This document shows, in pieces, positions 38,985-47,097 of a stretch of 64,000 nt of DNA (the stretch's first letter is position 1; every line of letters starts with the position of its first letter). The DNA lies in contig NZ_QGTL01000001.1 in the NCBI RefSeq assembly GCF_003182135.1, positions 62,001-126,000 of the forward strand. Reading direction: 5' to 3'. Source of the stretch: Nocardia neocaledoniensis. GTDB lineage: Bacteria > Actinomycetota > Actinomycetes > Mycobacteriales > Mycobacteriaceae. The position numbers and the translations under genes are program-made. The notes beneath the pieces were generated by a model. It saw nothing but the letters and a program-made list of their open reading frames with translations. It had not been told where the DNA came from and made no database searches.

Positions 38985-39497
38985 GTGAGTAGTAGTCGTA
39001 TCCCCCGCTGGGCCGCGCAGGCGGCGATGTGCGCGGCCGTGGCAGGCGCGGCCGTCGCGGCGCCGGTCCAGGCCGAACCGCTGTGGCCCGGCGGCCCCGA
39101 TGTTCCCGGCGTCCCCGCCATCATCCCGGCGCCGGAGCCGGAGCCGGTCGTCGCACCGTGCAGCGAGAAGGCCAGGGCCTGCCTGCAGCTGTCGACCAAC
39201 AACGCCTGGCTGATGGACAACGGCAAGGTGACCTTCGGGCCGACCCCGATGTCGCACGGCCGTCCCGGTTACGAGACCCCGCCCGGCGTCTTCAAGGTGG
39301 CGTTCAAGAAGCCGTTCCACTGGAGCACCCTGCACAACGCCCCGATGGAGTACGCCGTGTTCTTCAACGGCGACATCGCTTATCACATCGGGCCCACCGA
39401 GGAGCAGTCGCACGGCTGCATCCGGCTGACGCCCGAGGGCGCCAAGGCCCACTACGACTGGCTGGAGCCGGGCGACATCGTCGAAGTGGTTCCGTGA
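38985..39497 (+). CDS. secreted L,D-transpeptidase (YkuD domain)
   Basis: 170 residues. Signal peptide of about 30 residues, cleavage after VQA (VQA-EP). A short Pro-rich linker leads into a YkuD catalytic domain with His 134 and the S142-H-G-C145-I-R signature (YHIGPTEEQSHGCIRL). Such enzymes make 3-3 peptidoglycan cross-links or attach proteins to peptidoglycan. At this size it lacks the Ig-like domains of mycobacterial LdtMt2, resembling short single-domain relatives. GTG start with GAGGCAAG 7 nt upstream. Its 3' end overlaps the convergent MerR gene by 46 nt. Confidence 0.9.
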   Translation: MSSSRIPRWAAQAAMCAAVAGAAVAAPVQAEPLWPGGPDVPGVPAIIPAPEPEPVVAPCSEKARACLQLSTNNAWLMDNGKVTFGPTPMSHGRPGYETPPGVFKVAFKKPFHWSTLHNAPMEYAVFFNGDIAYHIGPTEEQSHGCIRLTPEGAKAHYDWLEPGDIVEVVP

Positions 39498-42789: not shown

Positions 42790-42818
42790 TTGCCGGGGGA
42801 AATGAGCGGGGCTACGTT
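42790..42818 (+). promoter_or_regulatory. promoter of peptide cassette 1
   Basis: TTGCCG (42790-42795), 17-nt spacer, TACGTT (42813-42818), followed by ACCCACATCACA. The same element, TTGCCA-17/18-TACGTT or TATGTT then ACCGGCATCACA-like sequence, recurs before cassettes 2 and 3, so the promoter was duplicated along with the genes. Confidence 0.75.
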
Positions 42819-42915
42819 ACCCACATCACAACAGAGATCTGATTGTGATCCGCACCGCGGCCGATGAATTCTCTTTTCCGGCCGGGTGTTCATCAATCAT
42901 GCAAGGAGATTCACC

Positions 42916-43029
42916 ATGGGTTCGCTGACCGAGATAATGATGGCCGCTATCGCGGGCTTGGGTTCCGCGGTCGAGGGTGACGGCCTGCTGGCAGTCTTCC
43001 TCGGCTCGGTCGAGGCTTTCTTCCCGTAA
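42916..43029 (+). CDS. small amphipathic peptide, type A, copy 1 (PorH/PorA-like, putative)
   Basis: 37 residues: begins MGSLTEIMMAAIAGLGS and ends FLGSVEAFFP. Strong AAGGAG 7 nt before the ATG. No signal peptide, no Lys, Arg, Cys or Trp; four acidic residues (Glu 6, 20, 33, Asp 22). Helical-wheel reading of both halves gives hydrophobic helices with a break at the conserved Gly-Asp (21-22). Invariant among the three type A peptides: G2, S3, E6, G14, S17, G21, D22, L24, F28-L-G-S31, E33 and the F-F-P end. Size, acidity and lack of signal resemble corynebacterial PorH/PorA, which are O-mycoloylated on Ser; S3, S17 and S31 would be candidates here. Coding status rests on ribosome site plus three conserved copies. 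Confidence 0.75.
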   Translation: MGSLTEIMMAAIAGLGSAVEGDGLLAVFLGSVEAFFP

Positions 43030-43104
43030 ATCGCCTCACCCACCACGGACACCCTTCGAACTCGTCGATGAGTTCGAGGCCACTCACCCCCCAGGAGCAA
43101 GCAC

Positions 43105-43221
43105 ATGGGATCTCTCTACGAATTGATGCAGACCGGCGCGAGCAGCCTCAGCGAGGCCGTCCTGCCTTTCATTCAGGCGCTCATCACGGTCAGCGGCGGA
43201 ACGCCGACGCCGGGTAAGTAA
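43105..43221 (+). CDS. small amphipathic peptide, type B, copy 1 (PorA/PorH-like, putative)
   Basis: 38 residues: begins MGSLYELMQTGASSLSEA, ends SGGTPTPGK. CAGGAGC lies 6 nt before the ATG. No signal peptide. The first 30 residues can form an amphipathic helix with a central Pro 21; the tail is Gly/Thr/Pro-rich. Invariant among type B copies: G2-S-L-Y-E6, T10, G11, S14, L15, L20-P-F22, Q24-A-L-I27 and S30-G-G-T-P34. It shares only the MGSL/F..E start with type A, so the two may be ancient paralogues forming a hetero-oligomer. 75 nt downstream of A1 with no promoter between, so co-transcribed. Confidence 0.75.
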   Translation: MGSLYELMQTGASSLSEAVLPFIQALITVSGGTPTPGK

Positions 43222-43736
43222 AACGCGCCACACGCAGTCGGGGGCGGACCGGAAGGTCCGCCCCTGACTCGTTTTCCCAGGACACTCCACCGCCCGGAAC
43301 GCGGCAGATTCATAGCCCCTGTGCATCATTTCGAATCATTTTCGTCCACGAATAAAGAGGATTTCTCAGCACGCTCCGACCCTCGATCCAACGAGTCGGG
43401 CGAACTTCGAGCGAGGGAGTGCGAACCCCGCTGCGCCACGCCGTCGTGACGACCCAACGGGCGCCGGGACGCTCCGAAGTGCACCACCCCCTCACGCACC
43501 GAACCCGAGGAATGTCCACGCAAGTTCCCAGATCAGAACGCTATGACCGAATATCAAGACCCATTGACAGACTCATCGCGAACGCACGCGTTCACCACCT
43601 GCGGGCGGGTTTGCCGTACCAGACAGTCGCAGTAACCACAGGTCACACGTAGTCCCGTCACACGCGGCGGCAACGGGCGAGTAGCTTCCATCGGGAAAGA
43701 AAAAAATGAACGAATCAGAGTGAGTGAAACATCTGG
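43222..43736. other. gene-poor spacer between cassettes 1 and 2
   Basis: Contains the terminator after B1 and then about 465 nt of relatively AT-rich, codon-bias-free DNA. Two open frames (43419-43652 rightward, 43326-43523 leftward) lack ribosome sites and conserved features, so I do not call them. It could be the remains of an older cassette or a regulatory region. Just before promoter 2 there is GTGAGTGAAACA, also present before promoter 3 as CTGAGTGAAACA. Confidence 0.55.
43236..43269 (+). terminator. intrinsic terminator after peptide cassette 1
   Basis: GGGGCGGACC/GGTCCGCCCC with a GGAA tetraloop, extended by AGTC/GACT on the outside to 15 pairs (one G-T), followed by CGTTTTCCC. It lies 14 nt after the B1 stop. 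Confidence 0.85.
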
Positions 43737-43765
43737 TTGCCACTCTCCTGAGGCGGCGCTACGTT
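43737..43765 (+). promoter_or_regulatory. promoter of peptide cassette 2
   Basis: TTGCCA (43737-43742), 17-nt spacer, TACGTT (43760-43765), followed by ACCGGCATCACATC. Preceded by GAGTGAAACA, a sequence shared with promoter 3. Confidence 0.78.
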
Positions 43766-43830
43766 ACCGGCATCACATCAGCTACACGATCGTGATGACT
43801 GCTTCCGGAAAAAGCGCAAGGAGACACAAC

Positions 43831-43944
43831 ATGGGCTCGTTCGATGAGCTACTACTCGGCATCCTGGGCGGAATGGCGTCCGCGAACCAGGGCGACCTCC
43901 TGCTCGAGACCTTCCTGGGCTCGCTCGAATCGTTCTTCCCGTAG
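43831..43944 (+). CDS. small amphipathic peptide, type A, copy 2 (divergent)
   Basis: 37 residues: begins MGSFDELLLGILGGMAS and ends FLGSLESFFP. AAGGAG is 8 nt upstream of the ATG; an upstream in-frame start at 43720 lies within the promoter and is rejected. Keeps all type A invariant positions but has Asn-Gln where copies 1 and 3 have Ala/Val-Glu before Gly-Asp, and is more acidic (D5, E6, D22, E26, E33). No basic residues. Translated as the first gene of cassette 2. Divergence with conserved core argues for selection on the peptide rather than a fresh duplication. Confidence 0.75.
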   Translation: MGSFDELLLGILGGMASANQGDLLLETFLGSLESFFP

Positions 43945-44010
43945 TTCAATCCGCCGACCACCCCTCGAATTCGGCCGAAACGCTGATTCACCCGTCCCCA
44001 AGGAGTAAAA

Positions 44011-44124
44011 GTGGGATCGCTCTACGAAATGTTCGCGACCGGCATGGCCAGCCTCGGCGACGGCGCCCTGCCGTTCGTCCAGGCACTGATCTCCCTCAGT
44101 GGCGGCACGCCCATCGGCGGCTGA
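44011..44124 (+). CDS. small amphipathic peptide, type B, copy 2
   Basis: 37 residues, GTG start, AAGGAG 5 nt upstream. Begins VGSLYEMFATGMASLGDG (first residue read as Met) and ends SGGTPIGG, one residue shorter than copies 1 and 3 and without the terminal PGK. Retains the G-S-L-Y-E start, LPF-QALI core and SGGTP. Its stop is 29 nt before the -35 element of cassette 3, and no terminator is visible, so read-through into cassette 3 is possible. Confidence 0.73.
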   Translation: MGSLYEMFATGMASLGDGALPFVQALISLSGGTPIGG

Positions 44125-44153
44125 CCAGCCTGTTCACTGAGTGAAACACACGT

Positions 44154-44183
44154 TTGCCACATCCGTGGCGGACGCGATATGTT
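44154..44183 (+). promoter_or_regulatory. promoter of peptide cassette 3
   Basis: TTGCCA (44154-44159), 18-nt spacer, TATGTT (44178-44183), followed by ACCGGCGTCACA. Preceded by GAGTGAAACACA as in promoter 2. Closest to consensus of the three -10 elements. Confidence 0.78.
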
Positions 44184-44241
44184 ACCGGCGTCACAGTAGT
44201 GATCGGACTGTGCCGGTGTTCGACAAGCAAGGAGTTAGACC

Positions 44242-44355
44242 ATGGGTTCGTTGACCGAGCTGATGATGGCGGCGATCGCGGGCTTGGGTTCCGCGGCCGA
44301 AGGCGACGGCCTGCTCGCCGCCTTCCTGGGGTCGGTGGAGGCCTTCTTCCCGTAG
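44242..44355 (+). CDS. small amphipathic peptide, type A, copy 3
   Basis: 37 residues: begins MGSLTELMMAAIAGLGS, ends FLGSVEAFFP. AAGGAG is 8 nt upstream. It differs from copy 1 at only three positions (I7L, V19A, V27A), while many third codon positions differ; mostly synonymous change indicates purifying selection and supports a real protein. Same invariant residues as the other type A peptides. First gene of the cassette directly upstream of the mycoloyltransferase. Confidence 0.77.
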   Translation: MGSLTELMMAAIAGLGSAAEGDGLLAAFLGSVEAFFP

Positions 44356-44424
44356 ACCCGGTGCTCGACGGCACCTCGGCCCGATTCCGGGCCTGATCCA
44401 CCTCATCACCATCAGGAGTTAGAC

Positions 44425-44541
44425 ATGGGTTCCCTCTACGAACTGCTGGAGACCGGCGCGGGCAGCCTCAGCAACGCGGCGCTGCCCTTCGTGCAGGCGC
44501 TGATCAGCCTCAGCGGCGGCACGCCCACCCCGGGCAAGTAA
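44425..44541 (+). CDS. small amphipathic peptide, type B, copy 3
   Basis: 38 residues: begins MGSLYELLETGAGSLSNA, ends SGGTPTPGK like copy 1. AGGAG is 8 nt upstream. Two acidic residues (E6, E9) and one Lys at the end. It lies 91 nt before the mycoloyltransferase gene, with a hairpin between them that may stop most transcripts while allowing some read-through. Confidence 0.77.
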   Translation: MGSLYELLETGAGSLSNAALPFVQALISLSGGTPTPGK

Positions 44542-44632: not shown

Positions 44633-45670
44633 ATGAAGAACGAAATGCTCCGCGGCATCATGTCGGCCGTCTGCGTCCTGGCCGTCGCCTCGGCCCCCGT
44701 GTTCGTCGACGGCGCGCACGCGTCGGCCGCTCCCGGCGCCCGGCTGGTGAGCCAGACGCAGTCCGGCCAGGTCGTCGACATCACCGTGTACTCCCCCGCC
44801 ATGGATCGCACGATCAAGCTGCGAGTCCTGCGGCCCACCGATACGGCGACCCCGGCGCCGACGCTCTACCTGCTCAACGGCGCGGGCGGCGGCGAGGATT
44901 CGGCCAACTGGCCCGGGCAGACCGACGCGGGCGGGTTCTTCGCGGACAAGCACGTCAACGTCGTCATCCCGATGGAGGGGGCGTTCAGTTACTACACCGA
45001 CTGGCAGCGGCCCGACGCCGGACTGGCGAAGAACCTCGAGAACAACGGCAACAACATGTGGACGACGTTCCTCACCCGCGAGCTGCCGCCGGTGATCGAC
45101 GCGACCTTCGGCACCAACGGGGTGAACTCGCTGGCCGGCATCTCGATGGCGGGCACCTCGGTGCTGGATCTGGCGATCCAGGCGCCCGAGCTGTACCGCA
45201 GCGTCTCCGCCTACAGCGGCTGCGCGATGACCAGCGACCCGATCGGCCGTGCGTTCGTCTCGCTGGTCGTGCGAATGGGCGGCGGCGACGTCGAGAACAT
45301 GTGGGGTCCGGCCACCGACGCCGCCTGGCGCGAGCACGACCCCTATGTGCAAGCTCATCGTTTGCCCGATGTTCCGATCTATATTTCCGCGGGCACCGGA
45401 TTGCCGGGACCGCACGACACTTTGTCGAATCCGCGGGTGCACATCAACGGCAAGAATCCGAATTCCATTCTGACGAATCAAATGCTCGTCGGCGGCGGCA
45501 TCGAGGCCGCGACGGCGTATTGCACGGCGAATCTGGCGCAGCGTACGCGAGAACTCGGCCGCACGAACATCACCTACAACATCCGCCCGACGGGCACCCA
45601 TTCGTGGGGCTACTGGGAGGACGATCTGCACGCCTCGTGGCCGATGATGGCGACGGCGCTCGGCATATGA
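44633..45670 (+). CDS. secreted mycoloyltransferase (antigen 85/Cmt-type esterase)
   Basis: 345 residues. Signal peptide of about 32 residues (hydrophobic SAVCVLAVASAPVF, cleavage near ASA-AP). Catalytic elements of the antigen 85 fold: SLAGISMAGTSVL with Ser 171 and THSWGYWEDDL with His 323; the early LYLLNGAGGGED forms the oxyanion region. These enzymes transfer mycolic acids from trehalose monomycolate to arabinogalactan, to another TMM, or (MytC in Corynebacterium) to serine of small proteins. Position directly after three peptide-pair cassettes suggests the last role. Its stop overlaps the WS/DGAT start as ATGA. Confidence 0.88.
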   Translation: MKNEMLRGIMSAVCVLAVASAPVFVDGAHASAAPGARLVSQTQSGQVVDITVYSPAMDRTIKLRVLRPTDTATPAPTLYLLNGAGGGEDSANWPGQTDAGGFFADKHVNVVIPMEGAFSYYTDWQRPDAGLAKNLENNGNNMWTTFLTRELPPVIDATFGTNGVNSLAGISMAGTSVLDLAIQAPELYRSVSAYSGCAMTSDPIGRAFVSLVVRMGGGDVENMWGPATDAAWREHDPYVQAHRLPDVPIYISAGTGLPGPHDTLSNPRVHINGKNPNSILTNQMLVGGGIEAATAYCTANLAQRTRELGRTNITYNIRPTGTHSWGYWEDDLHASWPMMATALGI

Positions 45671-47097
45671 GCGCCGAACTCCGGGTCGGCGCCGAGCGGC
45701 TGGACCCGCGGGACGCGGTGTTCGTCTACGACGAGACCGACCGGCACCTGTCCAACGTGGTCGCGGTGTACATCGCCGACGCGTCGGGGCGGGAGCCGCT
45801 GACCCGCGACGAGGTGCTGGACTGGGCGCGCGCGAGCATCGGCCACGCGGCCCTGTTCCATCGGACCCTGCGGCGGGCGCCGCTGGACCTGGATCTGCCC
45901 TCGTGGGTGCCCGACCCCGGACTGTCGGTGCGCGAACACGTCGTCCTGGACCGGCCCGGCGACGGATCGTGGGCGGCGGCGCGTGCCCGGATCGCCGAGA
46001 TCACCGCGGCGCGGATGGATCTCACCCGGCCGCCGTGGGAGATCCATGTCCTCGACGGCGTCGACGGCGTGCCCTCCCTGCCTGGCCCGGCCACGGTCAT
46101 CGTGCTCAAGTTCCATCACAGTGCCGGAGACGGCATGGCGACCCGTGCGCTCGAGAGCAAGCTGTTCGGGACCGATCCCGCGCCGGCGATCCGGCTCGAC
46201 CCGGCGTCGTCGCTGCACGCCGCCGTGCGGACGACCGGCGCGTTCCTCGCCGCGCCCCTTCGCTTCGTCGGCGGGTTGCGCCGCGCCGCGGCGGCGGGCG
46301 AAGAGCTGCGGGAACTGGTGGAGGCGGGCACGATCCACGAACCGGTCGCGCTGCGCCCGGCGACCCGGTTCAACCGGGACGTCCACGCCGCGTTGATCTT
46401 TCACCTGCTACCGATCCCGATGGCCGAGGTGCTGGCCGCCAAAGCCGCGGCGCCGTACCGGGTCACCGTCAACGACCTGATGCTGACGACGATCGCCGGC
46501 GCGCTCGCGGCCTACCTCGCCGAACGCGGCGAGACCCCGGACGGCTCCCTGGCCGCGATGGTCCCGATGTCGATGCGCGGTGTCGCCGACTGGGATTCGG
46601 CCAATCAGCTCACCCAGATGATCGTCGACCTGCACACCGACCTCGCCGACCCGGCCGAGCGGCTCGCGGCGATCAAGCGATCGGCGAGCCGGGCCAAGGA
46701 GCGCACCGCGAACCCGGTTGTGTTGCGCGGCGATCGGCGGGTCGAGACGGCGCCCGCGCTGCTGTTGCGTGCCGCCGGATGGGCAAGGGCGCAGCGGCGT
46801 TTCGACGACGCGGCGACGGTGCCGCTGTGCAACACCACCATCAGCAATGTGCCGCCGGTGACCGACAGCCTGGTCTTCCTCGGTCGGCCGATCCGGCGCG
46901 TGGTGGGTTCGCTGCCGATCCTCGACGGCGACGGCCTGCGCCATCTGATCACCTCACAGGGCGACGAGATCGTGATCGCCGTGACGACCGATGCCGCGAT
47001 GATGCCGGACCCGGACCACTACGGCGACCTGCTGGTGTGGTCGTTCCGCGAGCTCGCCGCGGCGCTGGGCCGGGACGTGCCCGCGCCGGCGTCCTAG
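45667..47097 (+). CDS. wax ester synthase/diacylglycerol acyltransferase (WS/DGAT)
   Basis: 476 residues. Transfers acyl from acyl-CoA to an alcohol or diacylglycerol. Active site HHSAGDG (His 150, His 151, Asp 155, Gly 156), N-terminal family start ELRVGAERLDPRDAVFVYDE, MVPMSMRG and the C-terminal NTTISNVPPVTDSL block typical of the family. No signal peptide; membrane-associated. Translationally coupled to the mycoloyltransferase (ATGA), an uncommon pairing. Its last bases overlap the convergent FhuF-like gene by 4 nt. Confidence 0.9.
   Translation: MSAELRVGAERLDPRDAVFVYDETDRHLSNVVAVYIADASGREPLTRDEVLDWARASIGHAALFHRTLRRAPLDLDLPSWVPDPGLSVREHVVLDRPGDGSWAAARARIAEITAARMDLTRPPWEIHVLDGVDGVPSLPGPATVIVLKFHHSAGDGMATRALESKLFGTDPAPAIRLDPASSLHAAVRTTGAFLAAPLRFVGGLRRAAAAGEELRELVEAGTIHEPVALRPATRFNRDVHAALIFHLLPIPMAEVLAAKAAAPYRVTVNDLMLTTIAGALAAYLAERGETPDGSLAAMVPMSMRGVADWDSANQLTQMIVDLHTDLADPAERLAAIKRSASRAKERTANPVVLRGDRRVETAPALLLRAAGWARAQRRFDDAATVPLCNTTISNVPPVTDSLVFLGRPIRRVVGSLPILDGDGLRHLITSQGDEIVIAVTTDAAMMPDPDHYGDLLVWSFRELAAALGRDVPAPAS

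Follow-up and report, generated by a model that had tools for sequence, protein, structure and literature searches.

Corynebacterium is where protein O-mycoloylation has been demonstrated; orthologues of the enzyme have been noted in Nocardia, Gordonia and Rhodococcus, and its extent outside C. glutamicum is described in these sources as open (PMC5310785, PMC11066868). In C. glutamicum, PorA, PorH and ProtX depend on the mycoloyltransferase MytC for their mycoloylation, and PorA is acylated by MytC in vitro (PMC5310785, PMC11927696); in a preprint, the PorA-PorH pore is modelled from five PorA and five PorH peptides, whose acylated serines form a ring (PMC12632848). MytC, also called Cmt1, is the one demonstrated protein O-mycoloyltransferase. 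Here we describe a 64,000-nucleotide stretch of the Nocardia neocaledoniensis genome (contig NZ_QGTL01000001.1; hereafter the window), in which three tandem pairs of tiny genes, encoding peptides A and B, are followed by a mycoloyltransferase gene. The six open reading frames (ORFs) are, with near certainty, genuine genes linked to that enzyme gene. A and B are likely to be mycomembrane peptides acylated by the neighbouring enzyme, and a channel function is plausible. The reading that we prefer, with a probability of roughly 0.55, is that the adjacent enzyme likely O-mycoloylates both peptides of this conserved cassette, and that the peptides would form helical, hetero-oligomeric channels in the mycomembrane.

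Three tandem pairs of peptide genes

The six ORFs lie on the + strand over 42916-44541 in the order A1 B1 A2 B2 A3 B3 (Table 1), and all were recovered where a preliminary description of this DNA had placed them. Every start codon is preceded by AGGAG, the gap from A to B in the window cassettes is 66-75 nucleotides (nt), and an N-terminal M-G-S (MGS) is common to all six peptides. The A peptides contain no lysine or arginine (net charge -4 to -5) and the B peptides have a net charge of -1 to -2; cysteine is absent from all six and no signal peptide is apparent in them by eye, as the preliminary description had it. Likeness between A and B is confined to the first ~18 residues (60.6 percent). 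The invariant serines are S3, S17 and S31 in A (24 aligned rows) and S3 and S30 in B (25 aligned rows).

The preliminary description had proposed selection on the protein from the silent differences between A1 and A3, and had suggested comparing nonsynonymous (dN) and synonymous (dS) divergence. A1 and A3 are separated by 3 residue changes in 37 and by 11 synonymous codon differences, with dN 0.046 and dS 0.55 (NG86); the same estimate gave dN 0.13 and dS 0.59 for B1 and B3. Both comparisons point to selection on the protein, the estimates being rough for such short sequences. The pattern AGGAG-N4..9-ATGGGNTC has 6 matches across the genome (7.3 Mb), 5 of which are these genes, against 3 in a backward-read control, and profile searches found no further A or B copies elsewhere in the genome. 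Pfam and NCBIfam returned nothing for the six peptides except a weak DUF3679 match, one search having used three peptides that lacked their first residue; DUF3679 (Pfam) as the identity of A2 was set aside as a weak match (E 0.078). A PDB sequence search with B3 as the sole query gave no match, and no open-access paper was found to describe these peptides by title or abstract. Source annotations, where given, call the A protein hypothetical or uncharacterised (57 proteins, most without a name).

The pair is widely conserved and not a local oddity. First profiles, built from three A rows and three B rows, matched 24 (A) and 17 (B) of 201 family genomes. Wider profiles (24 A rows, 25 B rows) were searched in 401 family genomes and matched at any level in 64 (A) and 54 (B) of them; confident A (E<1e-4) was present in 50, accompanied by confident B in 49, so that the profile search in relatives proposed earlier found the pair conserved. 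A lies 5' of B on the same strand in all 49 (hand count). The 50 A-positive genomes comprise 27 of the window's genus, 11 of genus g10, 3 of g22, 8 of g23 and 1 of g25, and the genera with the pair are Nocardia, Rhodococcus, Prescottella and Speluncibacter. In an order-wide sample of 298 genomes the A profile had 8 matches, all within the window's family. A three-pair array is also found in Nocardia sp. MH4 (L151). We did not count as members the weak A matches of genera g4 and g9 (14 of the 64 genomes, E above 3e-4), which lay inside open frames of 421-806 amino acids (aa) in 11/11 cases of g9 and inside a 520-aa frame in 1/3 of g4, nor the weak partial B matches in three g14 genomes.

All three A genes of the window are preceded by the consensus TTGCC(A/G)-17/18-TA(C/T)GTT, which, together with the AGGAG before each start, agrees with the earlier statement that every pair has its own promoter and good ribosome sites. 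Such an element, followed by a GTCAC...GTGAC stem at the likely transcript start, was found for 45 of the 58 A genes examined, the window's three included. The other 13 lack the motif as defined, some of them being second copies inside an array, and some of the 45 stems fold poorly (e.g. L127, L136). Covariation was tested on 21 distinct stems, chosen by hand from the 45: 91.3 percent of cells pair compared with 85.9 percent when shuffled, all slid versions being lower, and 9 cells changed on both sides compared with a shuffled mean of 3.8. Pairs with double changes numbered 2 versus 1.8 shuffled, which is no excess. Since a palindromic operator would give an equal stem signal, RNA structure is not proved by these figures. 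Separately, a GC-rich inverted repeat followed by a T-rich stretch at 43240-43275, 3' of B1, was noted by eye as a possible terminator.

Table 1 Features of the A-B locus, with positions in the window
Feature	Position	Strand	Detail
Promoter-like element, cassette 1	42790..42818	+	TTGCCG, 17 nt, TACGTT
Predicted stem-loop at likely transcript start, cassette 1	42824..42849	+	
Peptide A1	42916..43029	+	37 aa
Peptide B1	43105..43221	+	38 aa
Promoter-like element, cassette 2	43737..43765	+	TTGCCA, 17 nt, TACGTT
Predicted stem-loop, cassette 2	43771..43797	+	
Peptide A2	43831..43944	+	37 aa
Peptide B2	44011..44124	+	37 aa, GTG start
Promoter-like element, cassette 3	44154..44183	+	TTGCCA, 18 nt, TATGTT
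Peptide A3	44242..44355	+	37 aa
Peptide B3	44425..44541	+	38 aa
Mycoloyltransferase, MytC/Cmt1-containing clade	44633..45670	+	345 aa, PF00756 7.1e-37
WS/DGAT-type acyltransferase	45667..47097	+	PF03007 2.9e-22, PF06974 4.4e-20

The downstream mycoloyltransferase and its linkage to the pair

The enzyme encoded after B3 has a signal peptide by eye, and its triad S171/E291/H323 aligns with S189/E310/H341 of Cmt1. Against solved structures it scored 229.7 bits for Cmt1/MytC (4.8e-67), above 145.4 for PS1/MytA and 106.3 for Ag85A; it is 39 percent identical to Cmt1 over 313 columns. The substrate-side segment of MytC (Cmt1 ~271-311) is present in the window enzyme with a single-residue gap, compared with gaps of 3 to 10 residues for PS1 and Ag85A. 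The enzyme of a named N. neocaledoniensis locus (L128) is 97 percent identical to the window's. Matches to the enzyme within its own genome number 18, some being pieces of one gene, and A and B stand beside only one of them.

In a tree of 52 enzyme rows, 22 of them linked to the pair, the linked enzymes form two groups: 18 rows fall in a supported clade of 22 (100/100), whose remaining four rows are g14 enzymes without A or B, and four rows stand apart. The linkage label changes 3 times on this tree compared with a shuffled mean of 16.9, and none of 500 shuffles was as low, the kinship of rows easing such clustering. Cmt1, both linked groups and 8 of the 10 own-genome paralogs placed make up a single clade (100/99), with PS1/MytA and Ag85A outside it. 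By sequence, then, the window enzyme belongs to the clade that holds MytC/Cmt1, with triad and substrate-side segment kept; it differs from MytC in being one of many paralogs, and it is only a candidate for protein acylation. A one-to-one orthology with Cmt1 was considered and is not supported, Cmt1 being nearer to other rows; the long branch of Cmt1 makes its position unsure.

Linkage was surveyed from both sides. From the peptide side, with one locus per genome, a mycoloyltransferase match lies 3' of B on the same strand in 23 of 24 loci with the pair. From the enzyme side, the best 80 of 577 named loci comprise 44 in which both A and B lie upstream, in the enzyme's orientation, 1 with B only and 35 with neither (mostly other paralogs); the query alignment was made from enzymes linked to the pair, so this list is not a random draw. 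The 44 loci carry one pair (37 loci), two pairs (6) or three (1), and the distance from the B stop to the enzyme match is 90-356 nt. The mycoloyltransferase reported earlier as directly downstream is a MytC-type one, and a recurrent neighbour. In 6 of the 44 loci a second mycoloyltransferase follows (L112, L113, L115, L116, L137 and L139; Rhodococcus, Prescottella, Speluncibacter).

The second conserved neighbour is a WS/DGAT-type acyltransferase gene, the start of which overlaps the stop of the window enzyme (ATGA). A homologue occurs in the fetched flank, on either strand and either side, at 40 of the 44 loci with the pair; among the 36 others, the B-only locus alone has one. Farther out, the flanks contain genes for a MerR regulator and a reductive-aminase-like oxidoreductase. 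Two FecCD-type permease genes, at least 3.4 kb 3' of B3, are the only transporter genes recognised nearby; the FecCD family comprises iron-siderophore importers.

These neighbours bear on the suggestion, made in the preliminary description, that A and B are leaderless two-peptide bacteriocins or membrane-active toxins against competitors. Short, leaderless, paired and hydrophobic peptides in tandem copies would suit such a role, but cationic charge is a trait of leaderless two-peptide bacteriocins and A and B are acidic (net charge -1 to -5). Furthermore, both conserved neighbours, a mycoloyltransferase and a WS/DGAT enzyme, point to the cell envelope; the neighbours examined included no recognisable immunity gene, the transporters found being the FecCD-type permeases; and conservation of the peptides spans several genera, dN being lower than dS. 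We regard this alternative, which is weakened by the acidic charge and the linkage, as highly improbable.

The same linkage, together with a likely shared promoter, could be explained by peptides that stay in the cytoplasm or inner membrane and act there as helpers, regulating the mycoloyltransferase or lipid synthesis. At an N. alba locus (L119, near 2864), a promoter element and stem of the type seen before the pair begin 113 bases 5' of the enzyme match; a promoter directly ahead of the enzyme is a hint that pair and enzyme may share a transcript. The window enzyme, like its kin, would however act outside the cytoplasm, given its signal peptide (by eye), a regulator triplicated with separate promoters would be unusual, and most of the similar MGS micropeptides elsewhere have no mycoloyltransferase in the fetched flank. 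Such a helper role appears improbable to us.

Comparison with PorH/PorA and a proposed channel

The preliminary description had likened the cassette to PorH/PorA. For comparison, a PorH query matched 12 of 101 genomes at E up to 0.1, and a second small gene was found 3' of porH at these Corynebacterium loci. The downstream ORF had one common ending in 11/11 loci and an upstream ORF had a GroEL-like end in 7 (by eye); the 11 loci fit the published order groEL2-porH-porA-ppk2 (PMC5944148). The A-B cassettes resemble this arrangement in consisting of two short peptides, leaderless by eye, encoded in tandem on one strand with a similar gap (82 nt in L099, 66-75 nt in the window); a helical fold is, in addition, predicted for A and B. 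They differ in that A and B start with MGS and are shorter than PorH, in that they adjoin a mycoloyltransferase and a WS/DGAT gene (MerR and oxidoreductase genes on the other side) instead of groEL2 and ppk2, and in their host genera Nocardia, Rhodococcus, Prescottella and Speluncibacter. Judged from sequence, the pair is PorH/PorA-like in anatomy and, as far as testable, not a member of that family by descent.

The proposed mechanism starts from what stands in the sequence: a promoter-like element and a predicted conserved 5' stem-loop before each pair (stem-loops located for cassettes 1 and 2), and the enzyme after the last pair. A and B would be exported from the cytoplasm unaided by a signal peptide, along whatever route PorA and PorH themselves take, and the enzyme would transfer mycolate from trehalose monomycolate to serine, the candidates being S3, S17 and S31 in A and S3 and S30 in B. 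A is predicted to form one long helix, the AlphaFold model being a single helix over residues 4-35 (mean predicted local distance difference test score, pLDDT, 86.9), and B to be helical as far as roughly residue 30, followed by a loose tail of the SGGTP type. The two would then come together as an oligomeric pore held in place by their acyl chains, and where the pair is duplicated in tandem, as in a few Nocardia, there would be more of the channel or a greater variety of it.

The co-occurrence and constant order of A and B, the linkage surveyed from both sides, the enzyme tree, the MytC-like features of the enzyme, the N. alba promoter, the invariant serines and the predicted helix of A count in favour of this mechanism; several results weigh against it. 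In hhalign comparisons of A and B with 10 PorH and 11 PorA rows, the four pairings reached a probability of only 0.17-1.41 percent; A and B as PorH/PorA homologues are therefore rejected, family membership fails and the anatomy alone matches, although for very short, fast-diverging peptides a missing match argues only weakly for a separate origin. The amphipathic character claimed for both types stands modestly for B (0.017-0.073 of residue shuffles had an equally high hydrophobic moment), while A is not clearly above shuffled residues (0.106-0.147 of shuffles as high). The AlphaFold model of B (helix 3-30 plus loose tail) is weak, with a pLDDT of 67.5. In blastp, Cmt1 scores higher with an own-genome paralog (L082, at 261 bits) than with the enzyme of the window (224 bits), so the latter may use other acceptors. 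Linkage also has its exceptions: the first enzyme 3' of the pair looks incomplete in G122 (L044) and G155 (L042), a second one following; in G165 (L038) no enzyme was found in the 782 bases from B to the contig end; the N. alba locus retains the enzyme, and neither A nor B was found there; and at least 20 genomes of the window's genus gave neither A nor B in the profile searches.

Other channels are present as well. Cell-wall channels of the MspA type are known in these genera, namely NfpA/NfpB of Nocardia farcinica and PorARr/PorBRr of Rhodococcus ruber (PMC9233653); they are far larger beta-barrel proteins with signal peptides, unrelated to A and B. We found MspA-type porins in 12/12 genomes tested, with 11 matches in this genome, which also counts against a channel role: the pair would not be the only channel, and would be an addition and not a replacement. 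The same result favours mycoloylated structural lipopeptides, which would stabilise the mycomembrane or link it to the wall without forming a channel. The pair-enzyme linkage applies equally to such a role, the WS/DGAT neighbour points to lipid work, and a precedent exists in ProtX of C. glutamicum, a mycomembrane protein as tiny in kind as A and B, which is mycoloylated, acylated at its penultimate residue (PMC5310785) and linked to the cell wall (PMC12632848, PMC5310785). On the other hand, pairing in 49 of 50 genomes is more like a hetero-oligomer than a lone anchor peptide, and we consider a purely structural role unlikely, though a serious contender. ProtX is not known to belong to a co-encoded pair.

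If the channel reading is true, the pair would extend a pore system so far known from Corynebacterium, and suggests a second, helical type of outer-membrane protein in Nocardia and Rhodococcus, genera known for MspA-type channels. In strains that can be cultivated, the locus puts specific candidate substrates next to a candidate enzyme, and for the question of leaderless export it supplies another sequence family, with no detectable kinship to the earlier one.

Other MGS micropeptides and outlying genes

At 114 mycoloyltransferase loci, MGS was the commonest start among small non-A/B ORFs preceded by a ribosome-binding site (29 of 439; the next start, 17). By eye, 22 of these 29 can be grouped into recurrent families; another 4 are singletons of a similar kind, and the remaining 3 resemble noise. 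Matches to AGGAG-N-ATGGGNTC in five genomes numbered 6, 9, 8, 9 and 15, compared with 3, 0, 1, 1 and 1 in the backward control. Judged by inspection, micropeptide-like matches made up 5/6 in the window genome, 2/9 in G065 (both A/B), 7/8 in Rhodococcus sp. P-2, 9/9 in R. spelaei and 13/15 in P. agglutinans (A and B included). The last three genomes hold 24 non-A/B MGS micropeptides, 12 of which end in serine; 3 of the 24 have a mycoloyltransferase match in the fetched 1.5-4 kb flank.

A broader and more tentative possibility is that a class of leaderless MGS micropeptides has gone unrecognised, with A and B as its best-conserved members, and that these serve as mycoloylated channel and coat peptides of the mycomembrane outside Corynebacterium. 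MGS would then be an export or acylation tag, several MytC-type paralogs would each have peptides of their own to serve, and alongside the MspA beta-barrels A-B would make up an alpha-helical pore.

Further MGS families of 21-54 residues were seen beside other MytC-type paralogs (L070, L074, L080, L159, L189, L114, L115 and others, Rhodococcus and Prescottella included), and in the AGGAG pattern scan MGS micropeptides, A and B included, are scattered genome-wide in G075 (13), G083 (7) and G047 (9) (L240-L289). In Tomitella (L158, L166), clusters of small GS-containing peptides that do not start with MGS surround a related mycoloyltransferase. Elsewhere in the window, at 38985-39497 and ~3.9 kb 5' of A1, lies a gene for a cell-wall enzyme of the L,D-transpeptidase type (YkuD).

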